Below, piece by piece: positions 1,836 through 15,797 of a DNA stretch of 22,195 bases (within the stretch, counting starts at the first letter, position 1; each line of letters starts with the position of its first letter). This DNA comes from a virus: positions 1 through 22,195 of the IMG/VR virus record IMGVR_UViG_3300025853_000748. One strand, written 5' to 3'. Both the position numbers and the translations under genes were made by a program. The notes under the pieces were generated by a model. It was not told where the DNA came from. It worked only from the letters and a program-made list of their open reading frames with translations, and did no database searches.

Positions 1836-3870
1836 CGTAGAGAACACTGTCACTAAGACAGATGGCAAGCTACATTTAGATCCATTCACACCGACTAACA
1901 CGTTAGTCATGATCGGCTTACTGGTTGAGGGCGAACAGCCCAAGCACTACACGTTTGATCATAGCGAGTACGATTGTAAGTACGAATACAGAAAGAGTGA
2001 CTGTGAAGAGATACAAGCACTGCTAGATAAGACAACACTATTGATCATGCACAATGCTAGCCATGATCTTCAGTGGATCTGGGAGACCAACTTCCAGTAC
2101 GAGGGTGCTGTGTGGGATACCATGCTAGGTGAATACATCCTACAGCGTGGACAGAAACAACCACTGTCATTGGAAGCATGTGCTGAGAGGCGCGATCTAC
2201 CAATCAAGAAGCAGGACACACTCAAGAAGTATCTCAAGGACGGGTACACAGTAGATAAGATTCCTTACGAGGAGTTGAAGGAATACTTGTACGGTGACCT
2301 TGAGACAACTATGGCTTTGTTCTACGAGCAACAGGCTGACTACAGGGACGATGCCAACAGAGGTCTTGTACCTGTCGCTGAACTAACCATGGATACTACT
2401 AAGGTGCTGACAAACATCTACCGCACAGGATTTCAGGTAGATACGGAGGCACTGGAGCAGGTACGTGAAGAGTTTGAGGCAGAGAAATTATCACTTATAC
2501 GTGATTTAAATGAGTCTGTTGCATTACTCATGGGCGACACTGCGGTCAACCTCAACTCACCTGAGCAGTTATCTTGTGTAATCTACTCACGCAGGCCACT
2601 GAACAAAACGCAATGGGCCAATGACGCTGATCCATATATGAGTCCTACTGACTTCAAACGATTCGTAAATGAATCAAGTGTTCCAGTGAGACGCACTAAA
2701 GCTGTCAAGTGTCCTGACTGTAAGGGCAACGGCACATTCTTCAAGCAGAAGAAAGATGGCAGTAACTACAAGAATGCAACTAAGTGTGGCACCTGTACTG
2801 GCAGGGGCTATGTATTAAATGAACTACCTAAACTAGCAGGGCTGAAGTTCAATGCACCCAGTGCTAAGTGGCACAGTGCGAATGGATTCAGTACAAGTAA
2901 AGATAAACTGGAGTACTTACGTAATGTCTCAGTCAGTAAAGGAATGCAAGAAGCCGCATCTTTCTTATCTAAACTCACCAGACTTTCGGCGGTCGATACA
3001 TATCTTTCTAGCTTCGTGGATGGTATCAATATATTTACTAAGCCAGATAGCAAGCTTCATGTACGGCTTACTCAGCACATGACATCCACAGGCAGGTTCT
3101 CAGGGCGTGACCCTAACATGCAGAACATGCCACGTGGCGGTACATTTCCTGTAAAACGGGTATTCATATCCCGATTTGCAGGAGGTAAGATCATGGAGGC
3201 TGACTTCGCTCAGCTAGAGTTCAGGGTAGCGGCGTACCTGTCGCAGGATGAGGTAGCAATCAAAGAAGTCACGGAGGGTTTTGATGTCCACTCATACACA
3301 GCACAAGTCATTTCGGAAGCGGGTCAGGCAACTGGCAGGCAGGAGGCGAAAGCACATACATTCGCCCCACTCTACGGAGCAACAGGATACGGAAGAACAT
3401 CTGCTGAAGCACGGTACTACGAGCACTTCACTGAGAAGTACAAAGGAATTGCCCGATGGCACAGAGAGTTAGCAAAGGAAGTCCTTACGTACAAGAAGAT
3501 CACTACGCCTAGCGGTAGGGAGTTTGCATTCCCTGATGTGAAGCGCAGGAAGAATGGGACAGTGACTAACTTCACAGCGATTAAAAATTATCCTGTGCAA
3601 TCGTTTGCTACTGCTGACATTGTACCTACAATACTATTAGAGATACAGAAACGCATGATTAATTTGCAATCCTGTATCGTTAACAGTGTGCATGACTCAA
3701 TTGTTATTGACATACATCCTGATGAAGAGGCACAGGTAATAGGTGTAATTGAGTCAGTTAATGGTGACCTGAAGGAAATCATTGACAATAAATTTAAAAT
3801 AAATTTCAATGTACCCCTTTTATTAGAGGCTAAACTTGGTGTAAACTGGCTTGAACAACAGGAGGTCTGA
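1819..3870 (+). CDS. Family A DNA polymerase with inserted DnaJ-type zinc-finger motifs
   Basis: A 683-residue replicative polymerase. The start at 1819 is preferred over the ATG at 1792 because GGAAGG lies at 1804-1809. The 3'-5' exonuclease has Exo I (D6, E8), Exo II (N79, D83) and Exo III (Y156, D160). The polymerase has TGRFSGRDPNMQNMP (424-438), motif A with D462, motif B R507-x3-K511-x3-F515-x3-YG, and motif C HDS with D626. F515 aligns with E. coli Pol I F762, the residue that affects dideoxynucleotide discrimination. Between the two parts lie CPDCKGNG (298-305) and CGTCTGRG (323-330), the CxxCxGxG knuckles of a DnaJ central domain, which probably bind one zinc ion. From memory, such an insertion was reported for the HMO-2011 phage polymerase. 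All catalytic residues are present. Confidence 0.96.
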   Translation: MRVVLDVENTVTKTDGKLHLDPFTPTNTLVMIGLLVEGEQPKHYTFDHSEYDCKYEYRKSDCEEIQALLDKTTLLIMHNASHDLQWIWETNFQYEGAVWDTMLGEYILQRGQKQPLSLEACAERRDLPIKKQDTLKKYLKDGYTVDKIPYEELKEYLYGDLETTMALFYEQQADYRDDANRGLVPVAELTMDTTKVLTNIYRTGFQVDTEALEQVREEFEAEKLSLIRDLNESVALLMGDTAVNLNSPEQLSCVIYSRRPLNKTQWANDADPYMSPTDFKRFVNESSVPVRRTKAVKCPDCKGNGTFFKQKKDGSNYKNATKCGTCTGRGYVLNELPKLAGLKFNAPSAKWHSANGFSTSKDKLEYLRNVSVSKGMQEAASFLSKLTRLSAVDTYLSSFVDGINIFTKPDSKLHVRLTQHMTSTGRFSGRDPNMQNMPRGGTFPVKRVFISRFAGGKIMEADFAQLEFRVAAYLSQDEVAIKEVTEGFDVHSYTAQVISEAGQATGRQEAKAHTFAPLYGATGYGRTSAEARYYEHFTEKYKGIARWHRELAKEVLTYKKITTPSGREFAFPDVKRRKNGTVTNFTAIKNYPVQSFATADIVPTILLEIQKRMINLQSCIVNSVHDSIVIDIHPDEEAQVIGVIESVNGDLKEIIDNKFKINFNVPLLLEAKLGVNWLEQQEV

Positions 3871-3871
3871 T

Positions 3872-4750
3872 ATGACAACAGACGTAGCTACACTAAATAC
3901 TGCGAACTTCGCAGAGATGGCGCAAGCCATGGGCATGGGTGCTGACATGAACAGTGGCCCATCTAAAGCATCTACACTTCCACGATTACGGATATGGAAC
4001 TCCGCAGTCATGGGGCAGGTAGAAGTCAAGGGTAAGATGAAGAACATGGAGGTTGTACCTGCTGGTATGTACCGTCTTCAACTACCAGACGAGTCATTCA
4101 TCTATGCGGAGAGCGCAGAGATCCGTGTGTTTGTACAGCGTTTTATGTACAAGCGTTACAACTCAGACGAGAAGTCTTATGTCAAGACCATCATGGCTGA
4201 AGATCTTAATGGTGATCTGAAGGACAACACAGGCAAGTTCAACTGTGGTAAGCCTGCTGGCTACATTGCAGACTTCCAAGCTCTCCCTGATGACACAAAG
4301 ACACTGATCAAGCAGATCAAACGTGTCCGTGTGCTCATGGGCGAAGTTAAACTAATCAATCCCGTTGACGCTGAGGGTAATGAAGTTGCGGCGGATGTAT
4401 CCCCATTCATCTGGGAGATTGATAACCGTGATGCCTTCAAGACGATGGGCGAACCATTCACACAGCTAGGAAGGCAGAAGCGTTTACCTGTACAGCACTG
4501 GATTAAGTGTGGCTCAGAGGAACGTAGCTTGCCTACAGGAGCATCTTTCTTCCTGCCTACCCAAGAGCTTGACCTGAGTAATAATGTCGAGCTACAGGAA
4601 GCTGATCAGCAAAGCTTCTCTGACTTCATTGAGTGGATTGGTAACTACAATCAATACATCGTTAACTCATTCAATGAGAAGAACGTGCCTCAAGCATCTG
4701 ATGAAGATGCTAAGTTAGTTGATGAGTTCATTGAATTCGATGGGGATTGA
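3872..4750 (+). CDS. Candidate single-stranded DNA-binding protein
   Basis: A 292-residue soluble protein. The ATG at 3872 follows GGAGG (3861-3865) by 6 bases. I do not recognise a catalytic motif. The N-terminal 35 residues are low in structure; the middle is mixed strand/helix with basic stretches (TLIKQIKRVRV near 143-154). The last 20 residues are strongly acidic and end in DEFIEFDGD, an acidic tail with aromatic residues as in T7 gp2.5 and bacterial SSBs. It sits between the polymerase and the exonuclease, a usual place for a phage SSB. The SSB call is inference from the tail and position only; a replication cofactor of another kind is possible. Confidence 0.45.
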   Translation: MTTDVATLNTANFAEMAQAMGMGADMNSGPSKASTLPRLRIWNSAVMGQVEVKGKMKNMEVVPAGMYRLQLPDESFIYAESAEIRVFVQRFMYKRYNSDEKSYVKTIMAEDLNGDLKDNTGKFNCGKPAGYIADFQALPDDTKTLIKQIKRVRVLMGEVKLINPVDAEGNEVAADVSPFIWEIDNRDAFKTMGEPFTQLGRQKRLPVQHWIKCGSEERSLPTGASFFLPTQELDLSNNVELQEADQQSFSDFIEWIGNYNQYIVNSFNEKNVPQASDEDAKLVDEFIEFDGD

Positions 4751-6772: not shown

Positions 6773-6957
6773 TGTCACAAGAGATTCAAGTAAAAGTTGA
6801 CTTAGAATTCAATGTAGATATAACTGAGGTTTCGCCCGGACAAAGGCATGAAGATGGAATCACAGAAATTGTCACCGAAGTACTCGATTCATGTGTCTAT
6901 GACATTCCGGGTGCGGAACTCAAGAAGTGCCAAATTTCTATTGAAGGAATTGATTAA
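6772..6957 (+). CDS. Small acidic protein of unknown function, containing the nrdA promoter
   Basis: A 61-residue protein whose ATG shares its first base with the preceding TAA and whose own TAA shares a base with the nrdA ATG. It is predicted to be mostly strand (EIQVKVDLEFNVDITEV, then KCQISIEGI) with a helix between, and is acidic. No family is recognised. The junctions argue that it is translated in the operon. The gene also contains a complete promoter-like sequence at 6797-6824, so its codons are under a second constraint. Confidence 0.65.
   Translation: MSQEIQVKVDLEFNVDITEVSPGQRHEDGITEIVTEVLDSCVYDIPGAELKKCQISIEGID
6797..6824 (+). promoter_or_regulatory. Sigma70-type promoter P1 ahead of nrdA
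   Basis: TTGACT (6797-6802), 16 bases, TATAAC (6819-6824). The same two hexamers with the same 16-base gap occur at 10045 and 11204. Predicted start of transcription is near 6831, giving nrdA a leader of about 126 bases. It lies inside a short coding gene, so nrdA could be transcribed both by read-through and from here. The call is sequence-based only. Confidence 0.65.
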
Positions 6958-9372: not shown

Positions 9373-9856
9373 TTTTACTGACGATGACTTGCAATCTTGT
9401 AAGCACAAAGGAGAGGAGACTGTTCGTATCTGTCGAGGACAGGGTGCTAAACCCAGACTTAAAGAAGGCACTGAATCAATTAAGCGGGAGCAAGGCAATG
9501 AGATGGGATTTCGTGGCGAGTTAGCTTTCGCTAAACTATATAACTTGCCACCTACGGATGTTACTGTTGATGCTGACGATGGCATTGATTATGTTATGCC
9601 AGACGGTAGAACGGTTGACGTTAAGCTTTCTACTTACAAAAATGGCAATCTTATATTCGACAGCTTTGATAGGTTTAAATCTGACATCGCAGTCTTAGCG
9701 TATGGTGCGTACAATGATACTTATGTAGATGTCGCAGGATGGATATCTAAAGAAGACTTCATGACAGAATGCTATGAAAGAAACTTCGGATATGGAACAC
9801 GAAAAGTTGTCGATAAAAAGGCACTGCGCCCAATGGAGGAGTTACATGAGTATTGA
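9359..9856 (+). CDS. Small PD-(D/E)XK nuclease-like protein (copy 2)
   Basis: A 165-residue protein with GGAG at 9348-9351, 7 bases before the ATG. It has the same core as the protein at 1341-1835: GFRGEL with E54, IDYV with D77, and VDVKLS with D87 and K89, followed by a strand region and a C-terminal GWISKEDF segment. A DNA nuclease or restriction-like fold is inferred. The two proteins differ widely outside the core, so an old duplication or separate acquisition is likely rather than a recent copy. The N-terminal 45 residues are basic. The stop overlaps the next gene by 11 bases. Confidence 0.65.
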   Translation: MIRVDFTDDDLQSCKHKGEETVRICRGQGAKPRLKEGTESIKREQGNEMGFRGELAFAKLYNLPPTDVTVDADDGIDYVMPDGRTVDVKLSTYKNGNLIFDSFDRFKSDIAVLAYGAYNDTYVDVAGWISKEDFMTECYERNFGYGTRKVVDKKALRPMEELHEY

Positions 9857-10052
9857 TTTTGATGAAGAGTTTGACCTAGTAAAAGCGTTGCGTGAGGCGC
9901 AAGCACTTGAAATGGTTGAAGAAACAGAAAATGGGTGGCAGACTAAGGTAGTACCAGATGCCCTGTCACAGAAAGCCGCAAAAGAAATTGTTGATTTACG
10001 TCAACAAGTTAACGAACTTCGCAATAGATTGGCTAATAAATCAGTTGACTAA
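9846..10052 (+). CDS. Small coiled-coil protein of unknown function
   Basis: A 68-residue protein beginning at an ATG preceded by GGAGGA (9835-9840), the best ribosome site in this region, which rules out a longer frame from 9774. The first 40 residues are acidic. The last 25 form a leucine-zipper-like helix (AKEIVDLRQQVNELRNRLANK). It probably dimerises. No function is assigned. Its stop codon lies just after the -35 box of promoter P2 and it is the last gene before the terminator at 10083. Confidence 0.75.
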   Translation: MSIDFDEEFDLVKALREAQALEMVEETENGWQTKVVPDALSQKAAKEIVDLRQQVNELRNRLANKSVD

Positions 10053-10072
10053 TTTCCCTCGATGAGTATAAC
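10045..10072 (+). promoter_or_regulatory. Sigma70-type promoter P2 ahead of nrdB
   Basis: TTGACT (10045-10050), 16 bases, TATAAC (10067-10072), identical in both boxes and spacing to P1 and P3. The predicted transcription start is about 10079, only a few bases before the terminator hairpin at 10083 and about 52 bases before the nrdB ATG. It should serve nrdB. Confidence 0.7.
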
Positions 10073-10082
10073 TACCCTTGGT

Positions 10083-10105
10083 GCCCACTTCGGTGGGCTT
10101 TTTTT
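10083..10105 (+). terminator. Intrinsic terminator with C(UUCG)G tetraloop
   Basis: GCCCAC, loop TTCG, GTGGGC, then seven T. This is a textbook rho-independent terminator for transcripts arriving from the nrdA side. For transcripts from P2 it would instead be a hairpin at the very 5' end of the nrdB message. Confidence 0.9.
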
Positions 10106-10119
10106 ACTGTACAATAAAC

Positions 10120-10123
10120 GGAG
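10120..10123 (+). promoter_or_regulatory. Ribosome binding site fixing the nrdB start
   Basis: GGAG lies 7 bases before ATG 10131. The longer open frame from 10062 would read through the terminator stem and T-run and is rejected. Confidence 0.7.
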
Positions 10124-10130
10124 TGGTGGA

Positions 10131-11093
10131 ATGCCATTGCTACAAGAATCAAAGACTTATAAGCCGTTTCTATATCCATGGGCTGTGGAAAAGGCTATCT
10201 CACATGAGAAGGTACACTGGGGTGAATGGGAAGCTAAGCTACAGGATGATGTAGCACAGTGGAACAACGGGAAGTTAACTGATGTCGAAAGAAACCATAT
10301 TACACAGATCCTTAGACTCTTTACGCAGTCGGATGTCCAAGTTGGAACAAACTACTTGGAATCTTACATACCTAAATTTAAAAATAACGAAATACGGGCT
10401 ATGCTTACTAGCTTTGCTAACCGTGAATTTGTGCATCAGCGTAGCTATGCTTTACTTAATGATACGTTAGGATTGCCAGAAGAAGAGTTCTCAGCGTTCC
10501 TTGAGTACCAACAGATGGCAGATAAGATTGAGTTCATGGCTGACATTGACGTGAACACGCAGTCAGGTTTGTGCAAGGCAGTTGCCCGGTCAGTTATCAA
10601 TGAAGGCATGAGCCTGTTCAGCGCATTCGTAATGCTACTTAACTACCAACGTACAGGTAAGATGCGAGGCATGTGTGAGATCGTCGAGTGGAGTATCCGT
10701 GATGAGACGATGCACTGCGAAGGCATGACTAAACTGTTCCGCACATTCTGTGAAGAACACCCCCGAATTGTTACAGATGAATTTAAATCAGATATCTATC
10801 AAATGGTCAGAGACGCAGTTGCTCTGGAAGATAAAGTTATTGATCTTGCGTATGAGATGGGTGACTTGGAAGGCTTGTCGAGAGAGGAAGTTAAGTCATA
10901 TATCCGATACATTGCGGACAGACGGCTCATTCAGCTTGGACTCAAAGGTAACTACAAAGTCAAAGAGAACCCGCTACCATGGGTGGACTGGGTCATTGCA
11001 GGAGATTCTCACAAGAATTTCTTTGAGGGTGTTGTAACAGATTACAATAGCGCAGGTATGGAAGGTGACGATTGGGGGTGGCAAGCCGCATGA
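10131..11093 (+). CDS. nrdB: Class I ribonucleotide reductase, small (beta) subunit
   Basis: A 320-residue diferritin-like subunit that makes the radical for NrdA. Metal ligands are all present: D68, E99 and H102 (REFVHQRSY), E158 (INEGMS), E192 and H195 (RDETMH). Y106 is at the position of E. coli Y122, so a tyrosyl radical is expected rather than a Tyr-less variant. The C-terminus is acidic and aromatic (EGDDWGWQAA), as needed to dock on the large subunit. It is separated from nrdA by small genes and a terminator and appears to have its own promoter (P2). The stop overlaps the next small gene (ATGA). Confidence 0.95.
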   Translation: MPLLQESKTYKPFLYPWAVEKAISHEKVHWGEWEAKLQDDVAQWNNGKLTDVERNHITQILRLFTQSDVQVGTNYLESYIPKFKNNEIRAMLTSFANREFVHQRSYALLNDTLGLPEEEFSAFLEYQQMADKIEFMADIDVNTQSGLCKAVARSVINEGMSLFSAFVMLLNYQRTGKMRGMCEIVEWSIRDETMHCEGMTKLFRTFCEEHPRIVTDEFKSDIYQMVRDAVALEDKVIDLAYEMGDLEGLSREEVKSYIRYIADRRLIQLGLKGNYKVKENPLPWVDWVIAGDSHKNFFEGVVTDYNSAGMEGDDWGWQAA

Positions 11094-11194
11094 GCCAAGA
11101 TCAAGTTAAGCAAGAATTTGAAAAACTTAACAAGAAGATCAAGGAAATGGAGGCAGTCATCAGACACCTGAAACGACAAATAAGAAAGATTTAA
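11090..11194 (+). CDS. 34-residue coiled-coil peptide
   Basis: A short gene whose ATG overlaps the nrdB stop (ATGA), with GGGGG at 11074-11078 upstream. The product is one charged amphipathic helix with heptad spacing (QEFEKLNKKIKEMEAVIRHL). It is basic at the C-terminus (KRQIRKI). No function is known. The overlap with nrdB and the regular helix pattern support a real gene, though it is short. It ends ten bases before promoter P3. Confidence 0.55.
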   Translation: MSQDQVKQEFEKLNKKIKEMEAVIRHLKRQIRKI

Positions 11195-11203
11195 TATAAC
11201 CTA

Positions 11204-11231
11204 TTGACTTTTATATTCATTAGTGTATAAC
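11204..11231 (+). promoter_or_regulatory. Sigma70-type promoter P3 in the convergence zone
   Basis: TTGACT (11204-11209), 16 bases, TATAAC (11226-11231): third exact copy of the P1/P2 pattern. No open reading frame of note follows on the + strand before the terminator at 11307-11332, so its product would be a short noncoding RNA starting near 11238. Confidence 0.7.
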
Positions 11232-11242
11232 TATTAGTTATA
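11226..11242. repeat. Inverted repeat overlapping the P3 -10 box
   Basis: Perfect 8-base arms TATAACTA and TAGTTATA around a single T. The left arm contains the -10 box of P3. It could be an operator for a dimeric regulator or simply AT-rich chance; the other two promoters do not have it. Confidence 0.5.
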
Positions 11243-11332
11243 AGAGAGAAACTGCTAAGGCAGTTTTCCCTCCGCTGTTTGATCTCACCCTTACAGCAAA
11301 GCGTACAAGCCCCTCGCAATGAGGGGTTTTTT
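11238..11332 (+). ncRNA. Candidate small noncoding RNA of about 95 nt
   Basis: The stretch runs from the predicted P3 start to a strong terminator and has no plausible coding frame. It can form three hairpins: AAACTGC-TAAG-GCAGTTT (11249-11266), GCTGT with ACAGC (11274-11278 and 11293-11297), and the terminator stem. Between the first two lies an unpaired linker, CCCTCC (11268-11273), which is complementary to Shine-Dalgarno cores such as GGAGG. The layout is that of a bacterial trans-acting small RNA. The 3' end is antisense to the last three bases of the 1488-aa gene, so an effect on that message's end is also possible. Alternatively the hairpins only serve to end converging transcripts. 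No known RNA family is recognised. Confidence 0.45.
11307..11332 (+). terminator. Intrinsic terminator at the convergence point
   Basis: CCCCTC (11310-11315), loop GCAAT, GAGGGG (11321-11326), then six T; the stem may extend by A-T and G-T pairs. It points rightwards and stops + strand transcripts from entering the late genes. On the - strand the stem is not followed by a T-run. The hairpin at 11249-11266, followed by CTCTCTTAT on that strand, is a better but weak stop for the late operon. Confidence 0.85.
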
Positions 11333-14300
11333 ATTTGCGGCTCATTAATCCGCCTTTCTTGAAGGCAGGTATTTCCTCAAACCCTTCTGGTGCAGACTTA
11401 GTTCCATCCACTTCAACATAGTCGTATAGCTTGTGCTTATTCGTTCCTATACGAATTTCACCTACCACATTCCCAAGTTGAATATCTTCTGGACCACCTA
11501 CTGTTGCGGGTCGGAGGTTAGGTTGAGGTGCTTTTCCTTTCTTATCCACAGCGGTAGCTCTGTCCATTCTAACTGGACCTTTAAATTGTGCATCTAACGT
11601 ATAGAAGTGTGGAGCACTGTGATCTGGATTGCCCGGATGCTTACCAGACATTTGCTGTACAGCAACGATAGGGTGATCCAAGAATCTTTCACCTGACTCA
11701 GTGGCAATCTTGAACTTTTCTGGCTGAACTAAGTTAGTCCTTATGACACGTGCGTCATTAGCCTTTTTGCCTGTGTTAGCAACATAGTTGGCTTTCATCT
11801 CATCTACTGAAAGTTCTGGACCATCGTAAATGTTAGCCTTTGCCACAGCGGCATTCTGATCGTTACTTCTTTTAAATGATGTGCGAGGACTAACGAATAA
11901 ATTATTAAATGTTTTATTAGAAACATCTACTGCCTCTCTACCGGGGACAAGATAGTTCCCGAATGTCAAATCGACATCTACATTGCTATTCTCAGCCATC
12001 TTCAATAGTTTGGGCTTAAAATCCTTGCTGTCAGGATCAAAGAATCTTCCCGGTGCTGGCAGTATACTTGGAGCATCTGATGCTTTCGCTCTAGCTAACT
12101 TAGGATCTATGTCCTTTGTTGCTTCAGCAGTCTCTCTCATAACAGGTTCTGAGGGAACAGCTTGCTTATCGCCCTTCCTACCCTTCAATGTAATGGGGGT
12201 GAAAAACTCAGTAAAATTATCCACATTCTTTACAACTTTAGCTACACTTCGGGCAGGTATCCCTAACAATGGCAACGCTCCAATTGCACCTAGTGCCGCC
12301 ATACCGTAGTTACCTTCTTCAAAGTCCTCTACAGCGGCTTGTGCTGAACGTATCTCACCAGTTACAGGTGCAATGTCAAGACCAAGCTCAACCATCTGCT
12401 TTGTCTGATCATCAACACCGCTGTCATATATAGGTTGACCAGCACGTGTTTTACCAACTACTACACCACCTTCATCGAATGACTGCACTAGACCACCAGA
12501 AGCTAACTCTTGCGTTGACTTATTTTGTCCTTCCAATAAGTATTCACTGAAGTTAGAGTCCTCTGTAGGCTTACCGATTTCTGATTCAAGAGCGGCACGA
12601 TTATCTTTTGATATCTCAGTCTCATACCGATACTGCATGATATCGTTAATAGTGTATCCAAACTCCTCTTTGATCATGTCCTCTGTTACATCAGGATTTC
12701 TTTCTACAAAGAGTTCAATCGCATTGCCAAGTTCTTCTAAAATATTGGAAGAGATACCTGTAACAATTTCTCTAGCCTTTTCCTTGAAGAACTTTCTTTT
12801 GTTTTCATTGCTCTTCCTTTTGTACTCTTCGCCTCTGATGAACCCTGACATTTTCTGAGGCAGTTCGCTGGCTACCAGTTCACGGATTCTTACATCGGCA
12901 GGACCAAACTTGAACCTACGATATATTTCATAAGGACGCACTTGAAGTCTGTTAGCCTCTTTCTCCACTTCATTTGCATTCTCAGAGATGTTAAAACCAG
13001 TTGTTGCAGTACGTAGTGGGTCTACCTTCTTGGCAGGAGTAGAGCGCATCAAGCTGTAGCGTGGGTCTTCCTTATTATCTTCATAGTCTATTCCTAGGTA
13101 GTCCCCGATATCAGCTAACATTCCACGAATTGGTCCTAGTGATCTACCAGCACGTGCCAAAGCTATATCCCACCAATCTACTTCGTCACCAGTTTCTGGT
13201 ATTAGACGTAGCTGTTCATCAGTCAGGGAATACAGATCTCTTGCAACACTAATAGGTAAAGGAAAAGTAAATGTATTCAAGTAGTCCCCTGCTACCTTTC
13301 CCACTTTTTGTTCAAAGGCCAATGAAAACTTTCCTCCACTAGCACCTTCAGAGTCTAGTTCTGCAAGCATACTAGGTAGTAGCTCGTTAACTAACTGTAG
13401 TCCTGTCCCTGCTCTCATGGGAGATCCGATAGCAGTCTGTACCATATCCTGTGTAATTCCGACTAAGTCTGGCGTAGGTTGTCCTGTCCTTAATTTAAGG
13501 ATATAATCAGCAATATATAATTCTAGGTTCATCGGACCTATCATAGGCCGGAGGTCTAAAGTACCATGTTCAGTTTCTACATTATACCAAAGTGTTCCGG
13601 GGTCTTGAGTACCACGCAATGCGTAAAATATGCCTAACATTCCCGCGCCGCTAACCTGCTGAGATATTCTTTTTGCTAATGTTCTACCCGCAACCTTTCC
13701 TCCACCTCCCAGTTTTTCTGCCTGTATCATTCCTAGAACTGGAGCATGTTCATACATAAACTGGATCTGATTAATTACGAAACGAGGGAAGGGTATCAGT
13801 AAGCCTGTAATAAATCCGTACTGCTTATCTACGTCAAGATAATTCCTAGCTTGCTTAGCAAAGAATCCTTCTCCCTTGGGTGTCTTTTGATAGACCATTT
13901 CAAGGGATTTATCCATTGCCTCATTGAATAGCTTGGGGTTAATCTCGTTAAATCTTCCTTCACGTATAAGGTCAGTTAAATTTTCTCCGTAGTTTGCTTT
14001 AACTAGGCGACTAAGTTCCCCTGCAAATGTTGCTTTCTTAAAAAAGTTATCGGACATACGGTTAAGGATGTTTAGTCCATTACCTACGGTAGTCAGCATT
14101 TTTGAAACCGCTCCTTCTGGCTGACCACCCGATTTGGTTCCTGCTACAGCGGAGTCAATAAAGTTACCAAAAAATCTGTCAAAACCTTCTGCGTCTCTGT
14201 TCTTAAATAGATTAACAATCAAGTCTGCTTCGGGAGTATCTACAATATACTTTCCTACATCAGCAGAATTGAGAAAACTTCTTTTTGCCTCAGCTTGCTT

Positions 14301-15797
14301 AAAGCCTAATCTTTTCGCTAAACCGTTGTACAAGTAAAGACCGCCTGTCTCCACTGCCTCTTCAAACATGTCCAGTGTTAAACGAGACGCTCCGCCGAAT
14401 ACGTTACGTAAGGTAGTGACTGGCTGAGAAGTCATAATAGATCGACGGACACGCTCAAACTTGTTGCCCAAGTCCCTCGCCGTACTTCTTACTACTGCCT
14501 CCTGTCCTACAGCATTCGCTAGATTTAAATCCGCTCCAGTTACTTCAGTTGCTTTAGCTCCGTTCTTAACAGCTTCCTGCAATTGCTTTTTAAGCAAAAG
14601 TATGTCTGTTGCAGACTTTCCAGCAATTGTCTGTTGCGCCTTGAGTAATCTTGCCGCCTGAGATACGTTAGCCTGATAAATTAGTGCTATTTGAGATTGC
14701 GTTAAATTGTATTTCTCCATTGTTTTTACATACATATCCAATGGAATATCGCCATTTGCAATAGCAAGCGATAGGTCAGCAGTTATTCTGTTTCCGGGGT
14801 TCCTAGGAATGATTTCTTTCATCTCTAGTATGGCCGCTGTCATCTTATCAATATCGCCCTGCTCTAAACGAACCTCAAACCCTTCAGGTAAATCAATCCC
14901 ACTATCCTCTAGTGCCTCAACTTGTAACGATTTACCTTCCTTAACTAGCTCTGGGTCTAGGGGCTTGAGTCGTACAGCCTTTCCTGTTTCTGGGTCTATC
15001 GTTAATGCTTCAAGCTCAGCTAACGTCTCCTCAACCTCTAAAACGGATTTAGAGTCTGCACTCTTTGCTTTTTCAATTGTCTCTCTAGCTTGGACTTTAG
15101 CTTCGGCATCTCTTTTAGCAAATGCGGCTTCACCCTGCTGTTTCAGCAAAGTTGCATCAGCTTCTTTTGCGCCTAACCGAAGTGCATTAACACCGCCAAG
15201 GGCAACTCCGGGAAGTGCGGACAGTCCTGCTGTAAGAGCAACTTCAGTGCCACTAAACTCCCTTTCAGGGTCTAGCTCCATCCGTGTGCCTTGCTGTGCC
15301 ACACTTTGACCAGCACCAATAGCACCCTCCACGAGAGCACCTTGAAGTGCCCCCCTGAGCGTTCTACGCACGATTGCTTTAGTTGCCTGCTGTCCTGCAA
15401 CAGACACAGCTTTACCAGCGCCGCCTGTCAATAGTCCAAGAATCGTCGATGGGGCAGACGCAATACCAACACCGTAATCAACAATCTTCTCACCGAGATC
15501 TTCCATGCTTATCTCTGACTTGTCATACACATCAAACAGACGGGCCATTTCAGCCTTACTCTCTTCATCTGCTTCCTGCGCATACATCAGGTCACTCACA
15601 GTGTCTAATTCATTGACATCGTGATAACGCATCCGCTTGGCGAACTCGTCGTAGATTTCCTCTGGGTCAGTTAGGTCTACATCTCCTTCAGTGCTCTTAT
15701 ACAAATAGTTCGCGGCATCATTCAGAAAATCCTCATCTGCTTTCAAGTTCTCAGCGGTAATGTCTTCTGGGTCAAGATAGTTGTAAGCTTTTTTCAT
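11331..15797 (-). CDS. Very large virion protein, probable internal/DNA-ejection protein
   Basis: A 1488-residue protein, the largest in the window and last in the late block. Residues about 105-210 are rich in glycine, alanine and hydrophobics (STILGLLTGGAGKAVSVAG, then similar stretches), as in podovirus internal proteins that enter the cell envelope. Residues about 210-260 look coiled-coil. The middle is helical with aromatic-rich segments such as PFPRFVINQIQFMYEHAP. A glycine-pair motif occurs at 1099-1113 and a half copy at the C-terminus (FKKGGLMSRK). No lytic transglycosylase motif is seen. It is comparable in size and position to T7 gp16, but I see no clear sequence link. The region after 1115 may be a separate domain of unknown role. 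The start lies two bases after the upstream stop. Confidence 0.8.
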   Translation of the reverse strand: MKKAYNYLDPEDITAENLKADEDFLNDAANYLYKSTEGDVDLTDPEEIYDEFAKRMRYHDVNELDTVSDLMYAQEADEESKAEMARLFDVYDKSEISMEDLGEKIVDYGVGIASAPSTILGLLTGGAGKAVSVAGQQATKAIVRRTLRGALQGALVEGAIGAGQSVAQQGTRMELDPEREFSGTEVALTAGLSALPGVALGGVNALRLGAKEADATLLKQQGEAAFAKRDAEAKVQARETIEKAKSADSKSVLEVEETLAELEALTIDPETGKAVRLKPLDPELVKEGKSLQVEALEDSGIDLPEGFEVRLEQGDIDKMTAAILEMKEIIPRNPGNRITADLSLAIANGDIPLDMYVKTMEKYNLTQSQIALIYQANVSQAARLLKAQQTIAGKSATDILLLKKQLQEAVKNGAKATEVTGADLNLANAVGQEAVVRSTARDLGNKFERVRRSIMTSQPVTTLRNVFGGASRLTLDMFEEAVETGGLYLYNGLAKRLGFKQAEAKRSFLNSADVGKYIVDTPEADLIVNLFKNRDAEGFDRFFGNFIDSAVAGTKSGGQPEGAVSKMLTTVGNGLNILNRMSDNFFKKATFAGELSRLVKANYGENLTDLIREGRFNEINPKLFNEAMDKSLEMVYQKTPKGEGFFAKQARNYLDVDKQYGFITGLLIPFPRFVINQIQFMYEHAPVLGMIQAEKLGGGGKVAGRTLAKRISQQVSGAGMLGIFYALRGTQDPGTLWYNVETEHGTLDLRPMIGPMNLELYIADYILKLRTGQPTPDLVGITQDMVQTAIGSPMRAGTGLQLVNELLPSMLAELDSEGASGGKFSLAFEQKVGKVAGDYLNTFTFPLPISVARDLYSLTDEQLRLIPETGDEVDWWDIALARAGRSLGPIRGMLADIGDYLGIDYEDNKEDPRYSLMRSTPAKKVDPLRTATTGFNISENANEVEKEANRLQVRPYEIYRRFKFGPADVRIRELVASELPQKMSGFIRGEEYKRKSNENKRKFFKEKAREIVTGISSNILEELGNAIELFVERNPDVTEDMIKEEFGYTINDIMQYRYETEISKDNRAALESEIGKPTEDSNFSEYLLEGQNKSTQELASGGLVQSFDEGGVVVGKTRAGQPIYDSGVDDQTKQMVELGLDIAPVTGEIRSAQAAVEDFEEGNYGMAALGAIGALPLLGIPARSVAKVVKNVDNFTEFFTPITLKGRKGDKQAVPSEPVMRETAEATKDIDPKLARAKASDAPSILPAPGRFFDPDSKDFKPKLLKMAENSNVDVDLTFGNYLVPGREAVDVSNKTFNNLFVSPRTSFKRSNDQNAAVAKANIYDGPELSVDEMKANYVANTGKKANDARVIRTNLVQPEKFKIATESGERFLDHPIVAVQQMSGKHPGNPDHSAPHFYTLDAQFKGPVRMDRATAVDKKGKAPQPNLRPATVGGPEDIQLGNVVGEIRIGTNKHKLYDYVEVDGTKSAPEGFEEIPAFKKGGLMSRK

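Follow-up and report, generated by a model that had tools for sequence, protein, structure and literature searches.

The sRNAs alpha-r14/NfeR1 and AbcR1/2 of Alphaproteobacteria are free-standing, combine anti-Shine-Dalgarno-like unpaired motifs with diverging stems, and act at the start regions of mRNAs (PMC10746234, PMC3927594); in alpha-r14/NfeR1, the preservation of the anti-Shine-Dalgarno loops while the stems diverge is regarded as their mark (PMC10746234). Yfr1 of cyanobacteria is a short RNA with a 5' hairpin, a conserved C-rich unpaired motif and a terminator (PMC2190773), and RsaE and other UCCC-motif sRNAs of Staphylococcus aureus possess a UCCC seed that was proposed to bind start regions (PMC9266662). 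Phages also encode sRNAs that act through base pairing, namely AgvB, AsxR, IsrK and c4 RNA (PMC12197685). Among marine viruses, the HMO-2011-type phages form one of the dominant groups; a 2022 survey of them mentions neither a small RNA nor promoters (PMC9038755). Here we describe a locus of such a phage that, on comparison with its relatives, appears to represent a new phage sRNA family and a credible new regulatory RNA. Such an RNA, conserved and under a phage promoter of its own, provides a defined handle on post-transcriptional control by HMO-2011-type phages.

The carrier phage and the signals of the locus

Genes for a DnaB-like helicase, for a family A DNA polymerase that contains a DnaJ zinc domain, for endonuclease I and for class I NrdA and NrdB occupy the + strand of the window (the whole stretch of DNA analysed, a viral record of 22.2 kb), and genes directed leftward come after them. 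This polymerase shares 60% identity with its counterpart in Puniceispirillum phage HMO-2011, the map of which exhibits the identical rightward-then-leftward arrangement. Both features used for assignment to the HMO-2011 type, i.e. a family A DNA polymerase with a partial DnaJ domain and the HMO-2011 gene order, are present; the group and its DnaJ insertion have been described (PMC9038755), and judged by its genes the window is an HMO-2011-like marine phage.

The element lies at the end of the rightward genes. Its upstream neighbour is the ORF containing nrdB (10062-11093, + strand; PF00268, 240 bits), whose conserved start is probably the ATG at about 10131, followed by a 40-aa ORF (11072-11194, + strand) found in many, not all, relatives. 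The converging leftward gene of 1488 aa (11331-15797, - strand) has no PHROG match, and its stop codon falls inside the T-run of the terminator. On the - strand of this junction (11331-11204) a convincing terminator of the leftward operon was not seen, in contrast to the A-run/T-run hairpin of HMO-2011. No gene lies between promoter P3 and the terminator, as the 40-aa ORF stops at 11194 and the leftward ORF at 11331. A search for tRNA and tmRNA found none, and a hidden small protein was rejected for want of a conserved reading frame, the indels among relatives not being multiples of three.

P3 (11204-11232, + strand) consists of TTGACT (11204-11209), a 16-nt spacer and TATAACT (11226-11232), and is present in relatives. 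The window contains three exact copies of this motif (6797, 10045 and 11204) vs none in 100 dinucleotide shuffles, and nearly all matches in the window and 13 related contigs exhibit the fixed 16-base spacing and the extension TATAACTA. The near-complete genomes carry about six copies each: in the early region, within the small gene that precedes nrdA, ahead of nrdB, and at the element. The presence of one member of this fixed-spacing family at the element argues for an independent sRNA gene, and we regard it as very probable, from sequence comparison, that 11204-11332 is one. Judging from the common promoter type, the RNA would be expressed together with the early and nrd genes. The earlier note had placed its action at the switch to late expression, which is not supported, P3 being of the same class as the promoters before the early and nrd genes.

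Three further observations concern these promoters. At 10045-10106, just 5' of nrdB, a family promoter enters the terminator GCCCACTTCGGTGGGC-TTTTTTT within about 15 nt; the pair is kept in all relatives checked, with stem letters changing on both sides, and the promoter would yield a transcript of about 30 nt or serve as an nrdB attenuator. Another copy (6797-6825), conserved in seven records, lies inside the 61-aa ORF 5' of nrdA; this conservation is ambiguous because the same stretch also encodes protein. A perfect 17-bp palindrome, TATAACTATTAGTTATA (11226-11242), spans the -10 and start region of P3; the closest relatives retain it, L008 and L023 do not, and it is possibly an operator or a chance occurrence.

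The intrinsic terminator, GCCCCTCGCAATGAGGGG with its T-run (11307-11332, stem 11307-11329, + strand), is the first-listed site of a terminator scan, in which such sites are generally not in excess over shuffles; its weight therefore comes from conservation, the stem covarying from U-A to G-C in relatives. Near-identical copies of the stretch 11304-11336, including the GCAAT loop (94% over 33 nt), occur in the unrelated enterobacterial phages phiEB49 and Sd1, hence the terminator alone is not specific to the family. Thus, the element possesses its own intrinsic terminator and lacks coding potential, and the earlier reading of a promoter followed by a strong intrinsic terminator, with no gene in between, is borne out.

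Predicted structure and conservation of the RNA

The predicted transcript of about 94 nt (11239-11332, + strand; start placed at 11238-11241) folds with -33.1 kcal/mol (z = -4.6 vs shuffled sequence; -3.0 with the terminator removed) into two hairpins and the terminator hairpin. Hairpin 1 (11244-11272), with a 5' GAG/3' CTC extension, exhibits compensatory A-U/G-C changes at two pairs in relatives. It runs into the C-rich linker TCCCTCC (11267-11273; 93% pairwise identity, 12 sequences), in which CCCTCC (11268-11273) is predicted to pair mostly with the 5' GAGAG, extending hairpin 1; the mean unpaired probability of CCCTCC is 0.38 in the window and 0.38-0.65 in its relatives of form A (see below). 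In hairpin 2 (11274-11297), the stem GCTGT/ACAGC is 100% and the loop core 93% identical, and the loop around CTCACCC (11284-11290) is the fully open segment of the predicted fold. The two hairpins proposed earlier are therefore recovered, whereas the proposed exposure of CCCTCC is not, the CUCACCC loop being open instead. The conserved C-rich unpaired seed is to be sought in this loop (CTCACMC, open and about 93% identical), the linker being only partly open.

This variety of the element, which we call form A, was found in 18 of 80 viral contigs with a close nrdB at covariance-model scores of 81-117 bits, which are high partly by construction, since 13 of the 18 sequences were used to build the model. 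Pattern scans of IMG/VR added one contig (L096). Over the compared stretch there are 15 distinct sequences, in about 20 contigs; these relatives are metagenome sequences representing few independent lineages. Each of the 17 records searched whole contains a single copy, always between the end of nrdB and the converging genes. The distance to nrdB varies: the element follows directly, past the 40-aa ORF, or past phoH in L014 (about 4011-4690; PF02562, 192 bits), and both its promoter and its place are kept even where phoH or nothing intervenes. A promoter of the family precedes every distinct form A sequence except that of L035, which contains the RNA without it; with this sole exception, the element has the promoter of its own expected of an independently transcribed phage small RNA. 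The isolates HMO-2011 and CRP-1 lack form A and have only a plain terminator at the equivalent junction. No match to the form A core was found in 84,980 bacterial and archaeal species genomes. This also argues against a mimic of a CRISPR repeat (an RNA anti-CRISPR), for which a matching repeat array should appear among these genomes, the comparison covering near-exact repeats only.

Several patterns of substitution point to selection on the RNA. Hairpin 1 and the terminator stem of form A display compensatory changes, with 14 cells altered on both sides vs 5.3 in shuffles, and 98.7% of the cells are paired vs 38-56% when the partner is slid. However, the number of covarying pairs, three, is not above shuffles (170/500), so the covariation signal rests on few events, and the invariance of the hairpin-2 stem means that covariation neither supports nor refutes hairpin 2. 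Cells with G-U are far more frequent than cells with A-C: form A has 34 vs 2, with 12 of the 34 contributed by a single constant G-U pair, and form B, described below, has 22 vs 0. This indicates that the + strand RNA is the selected one and that a conserved structure exists on the transcribed strand. Between form A sequences, identity is 93-100% in the linker TCCCTCC, in the hairpin-2 stem and in the loop core CTCACCC, as compared to 47% at four-fold degenerate sites of nrdB, 41% in the 3' linker and 34% in the hairpin-1 loop. The covariance analysis in related phages for which the earlier note had called thus yields conserved stems with compensatory changes and a promoter kept save in L035; together with the conserved terminator and position, it lends good support to the proposal of a phage small RNA of about 95 nt.

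At the same site and behind the same promoter, about ten related sequences carry a different body, form B, composed of UCCCACCCG, a 10-bp hairpin and a terminator of the same kind. Its structure as a whole shows six pairs with changes on both sides, a number reached by 2 of 500 shuffles. The covariance models of the two forms match each other's family weakly (27-33 bits, partly via the terminator), and their common descent appears probable from these scores. Form B stands without rmf in L012, L031, L032, L042 and L117. In L004, L005, L015, L020 and L028 it lies 3' of a 58-aa gene for the ribosome modulation factor (PF04957; 31.5 bits, cut-off 27.9), whose stop codon is at the foot of the RNA hairpin; in these five contigs (about 4120-4350) rmf is found between the P3-type promoter and the RNA. 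An obligatory partnership with rmf was rejected, as 26 further, more distant phage rmf loci have no such RNA adjoining. A pairing between CCCACC of form B and the arm GGTGGGC in the short terminator 5' of nrdB was likewise discarded, since it is not kept in G011 and G014.

Proposed mode of action and alternative readings

A free-standing RNA whose stems drift while its C-rich unpaired segments remain fixed follows the pattern of base-pairing sRNAs with anti-Shine-Dalgarno seeds. We therefore propose, as the best explanation of the whole and one we hold to be reasonably probable, a free-standing sRNA gene acting by base pairing through its C-rich segments. Transcription by host RNA polymerase would run from P3 to the intrinsic terminator and produce a three-hairpin RNA of about 94 nt. 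Pairing would involve its nearly invariant C-rich segments, chiefly the open loop with CUCACMC, and the UUUCCCUCC linker may also pair once the 5' GAGAG/CUC clamp opens. The RNA would thereby bind purine-rich translation-initiation regions and block ribosome entry, like the alphaproteobacterial anti-Shine-Dalgarno sRNAs; as to whether start regions of mRNAs are indeed what it pairs with, we consider the chances about even. Against our proposal stand the missing promoter of L035, the three covarying pairs of form A that do not exceed shuffles, the largely paired state of CCCUCC, and the lack of a conserved phage target.

The search for targets bears on the last point. The earlier note had envisaged down-regulation of the candidate SSB gene (ribosome site at 3861-3865) and of a 68-aa gene (ribosome site at 9835-9840). 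GGAGG is present at 3861 and 9835 as part of ordinary Shine-Dalgarno sequences, but the match amounts to GGAGG only, and no ribosome-site target is common to seven form A genomes beyond those of shuffled seeds, so that this regulation finds no support. Runs of 8-10 complementary bases in the window are not at ribosome sites, the nearest being 8 bases at +24 of the 21478-22050 gene, and the top predicted duplexes vary from genome to genome. Perfect 7-mers are shared no more often than with shuffled seeds: counted by position they give 5 gene clusters (0-5 with shuffled seeds), and at start sites they give 1 (0-2). A shared target at the 61-aa gene (6772) was rejected for the same reason: it forms one gene cluster in 5 genomes, and shuffled seeds yield 0-2 such clusters. 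With no phage target conserved clearly above shuffled controls, host mRNAs would be the likelier targets.

The lack of a conserved phage target would also agree with a decoy or sponge, the conserved segments of which titrate Hfq, a host sRNA or some other RNA-binding protein as host partner rather than silence mRNAs. Phage RNAs such as AgvB act in this manner (PMC12197685), and Caulobacter is known to possess an RNA that acts as a sponge for anti-Shine-Dalgarno sRNAs (PMC12559287); however, the seeds of the element are C-rich like those of silencing sRNAs, whereas a sponge of such sRNAs is expected to be purine-rich, and we consider this reading unlikely. It is tempting to go beyond the base-pairing proposal and regard the small RNA as a broad anti-Shine-Dalgarno silencer of host translation, placed in the slot where sister phages carry the ribosome modulation factor. 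This we hold to be improbable; if true, RNA and protein would be two means to redirect host ribosomes, sometimes on one transcript. More generally, the slot held in common with the rmf gene suggests a testable link to host translation.

The element could instead represent the ordinary 3' end of the early operon: the nrd transcript would finish with a structured 3' UTR and a terminator, the promoter being incidental. It does close a rightward operon, where HMO-2011 and CRP-1 have plain terminators, and L035 is without the promoter. Yet the promoter is a strict member of the phage family, kept in all other distinct form A sequences, and a terminator needs neither the invariant linker nor the invariant loop, which makes this explanation quite improbable. 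A related scenario, in which promoter, rmf and 3' UTR formed an ancestral unit and the RNA was left as a by-product after the loss of rmf, draws on the location of form B, which is 3' of rmf under the same promoter in five contigs and alone in the others. It is very improbable: a remnant is expected to decay, whereas form A and the orphan form B either show stronger constraint than synonymous sites or exhibit covariation, and the distant rmf-bearing phages lack the RNA. A functional sRNA derived from a 3' UTR is possible and compatible with the base-pairing sRNA that we favour. Finally, the element might serve the late mRNA transcribed leftward, forming its 3' end or terminator or pairing with it as a cis-antisense RNA. 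In favour of this reading, no leftward hairpin with a good U-run was seen, so that late mRNA may run through the junction and thereby be antisense to the small RNA. However, the G-U pairs lie on the + strand, with almost never a - strand equivalent, and the promoter is directed rightward; we consider the reading highly improbable.

Relationship to described small RNAs

Membership in an Rfam family was rejected, as no family of Rfam 15 exceeds its gathering threshold and the best sub-threshold matches are far below the cut-off; an earlier description of the element was not found in the open-access full texts that constituted the literature covered. The element is like alpha-r14/NfeR1 and AbcR1/2 in its free-standing nature, its anti-Shine-Dalgarno-like unpaired motifs and its diverging stems, but it is phage-borne, has a linker partly closed by its own 5' end, and lacks an Rfam match. 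It differs from alpha-r14/NfeR1 also in the motifs, UUUCCCNCC and CUCACMC rather than three copies of CCUCCUCCC; the latter sequence, one copy of which is carried by each of the three hairpins of alpha-r14/NfeR1, is absent from the window sequence, and no significant Rfam match links the two. With Yfr1 it shares the short length, the 5' hairpin, the conserved C-rich unpaired motif and the terminator, and the forms in L011 and L023 have the 8-mer CCUCACAC in common with the Yfr1 undecamer ACUCCUCACAC. However, the motif of Yfr1 lies between two hairpins and the matching piece of the phage element in a hairpin loop; the window copy contains neither undecamer nor 8-mer, and no Yfr1 match was obtained from Rfam at E up to 10. 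The UCCC seed likens the element to RsaE and its counterparts in S. aureus, which belong to an unrelated host phylum and are unrelated in sequence. AgvB, AsxR, IsrK and c4 RNA are likewise phage-encoded and base-pairing, but they come from prophages or P1/P7 of enterobacteria, a sequence relation to them was not found, and the present element is from uncultured marine phages. By motif, the element is not a member of either the alpha-r14/NfeR1 (PMC10746234) or the Yfr1 (PMC2190773) family, but these two and RsaE (PMC9266662) are its closest working models.
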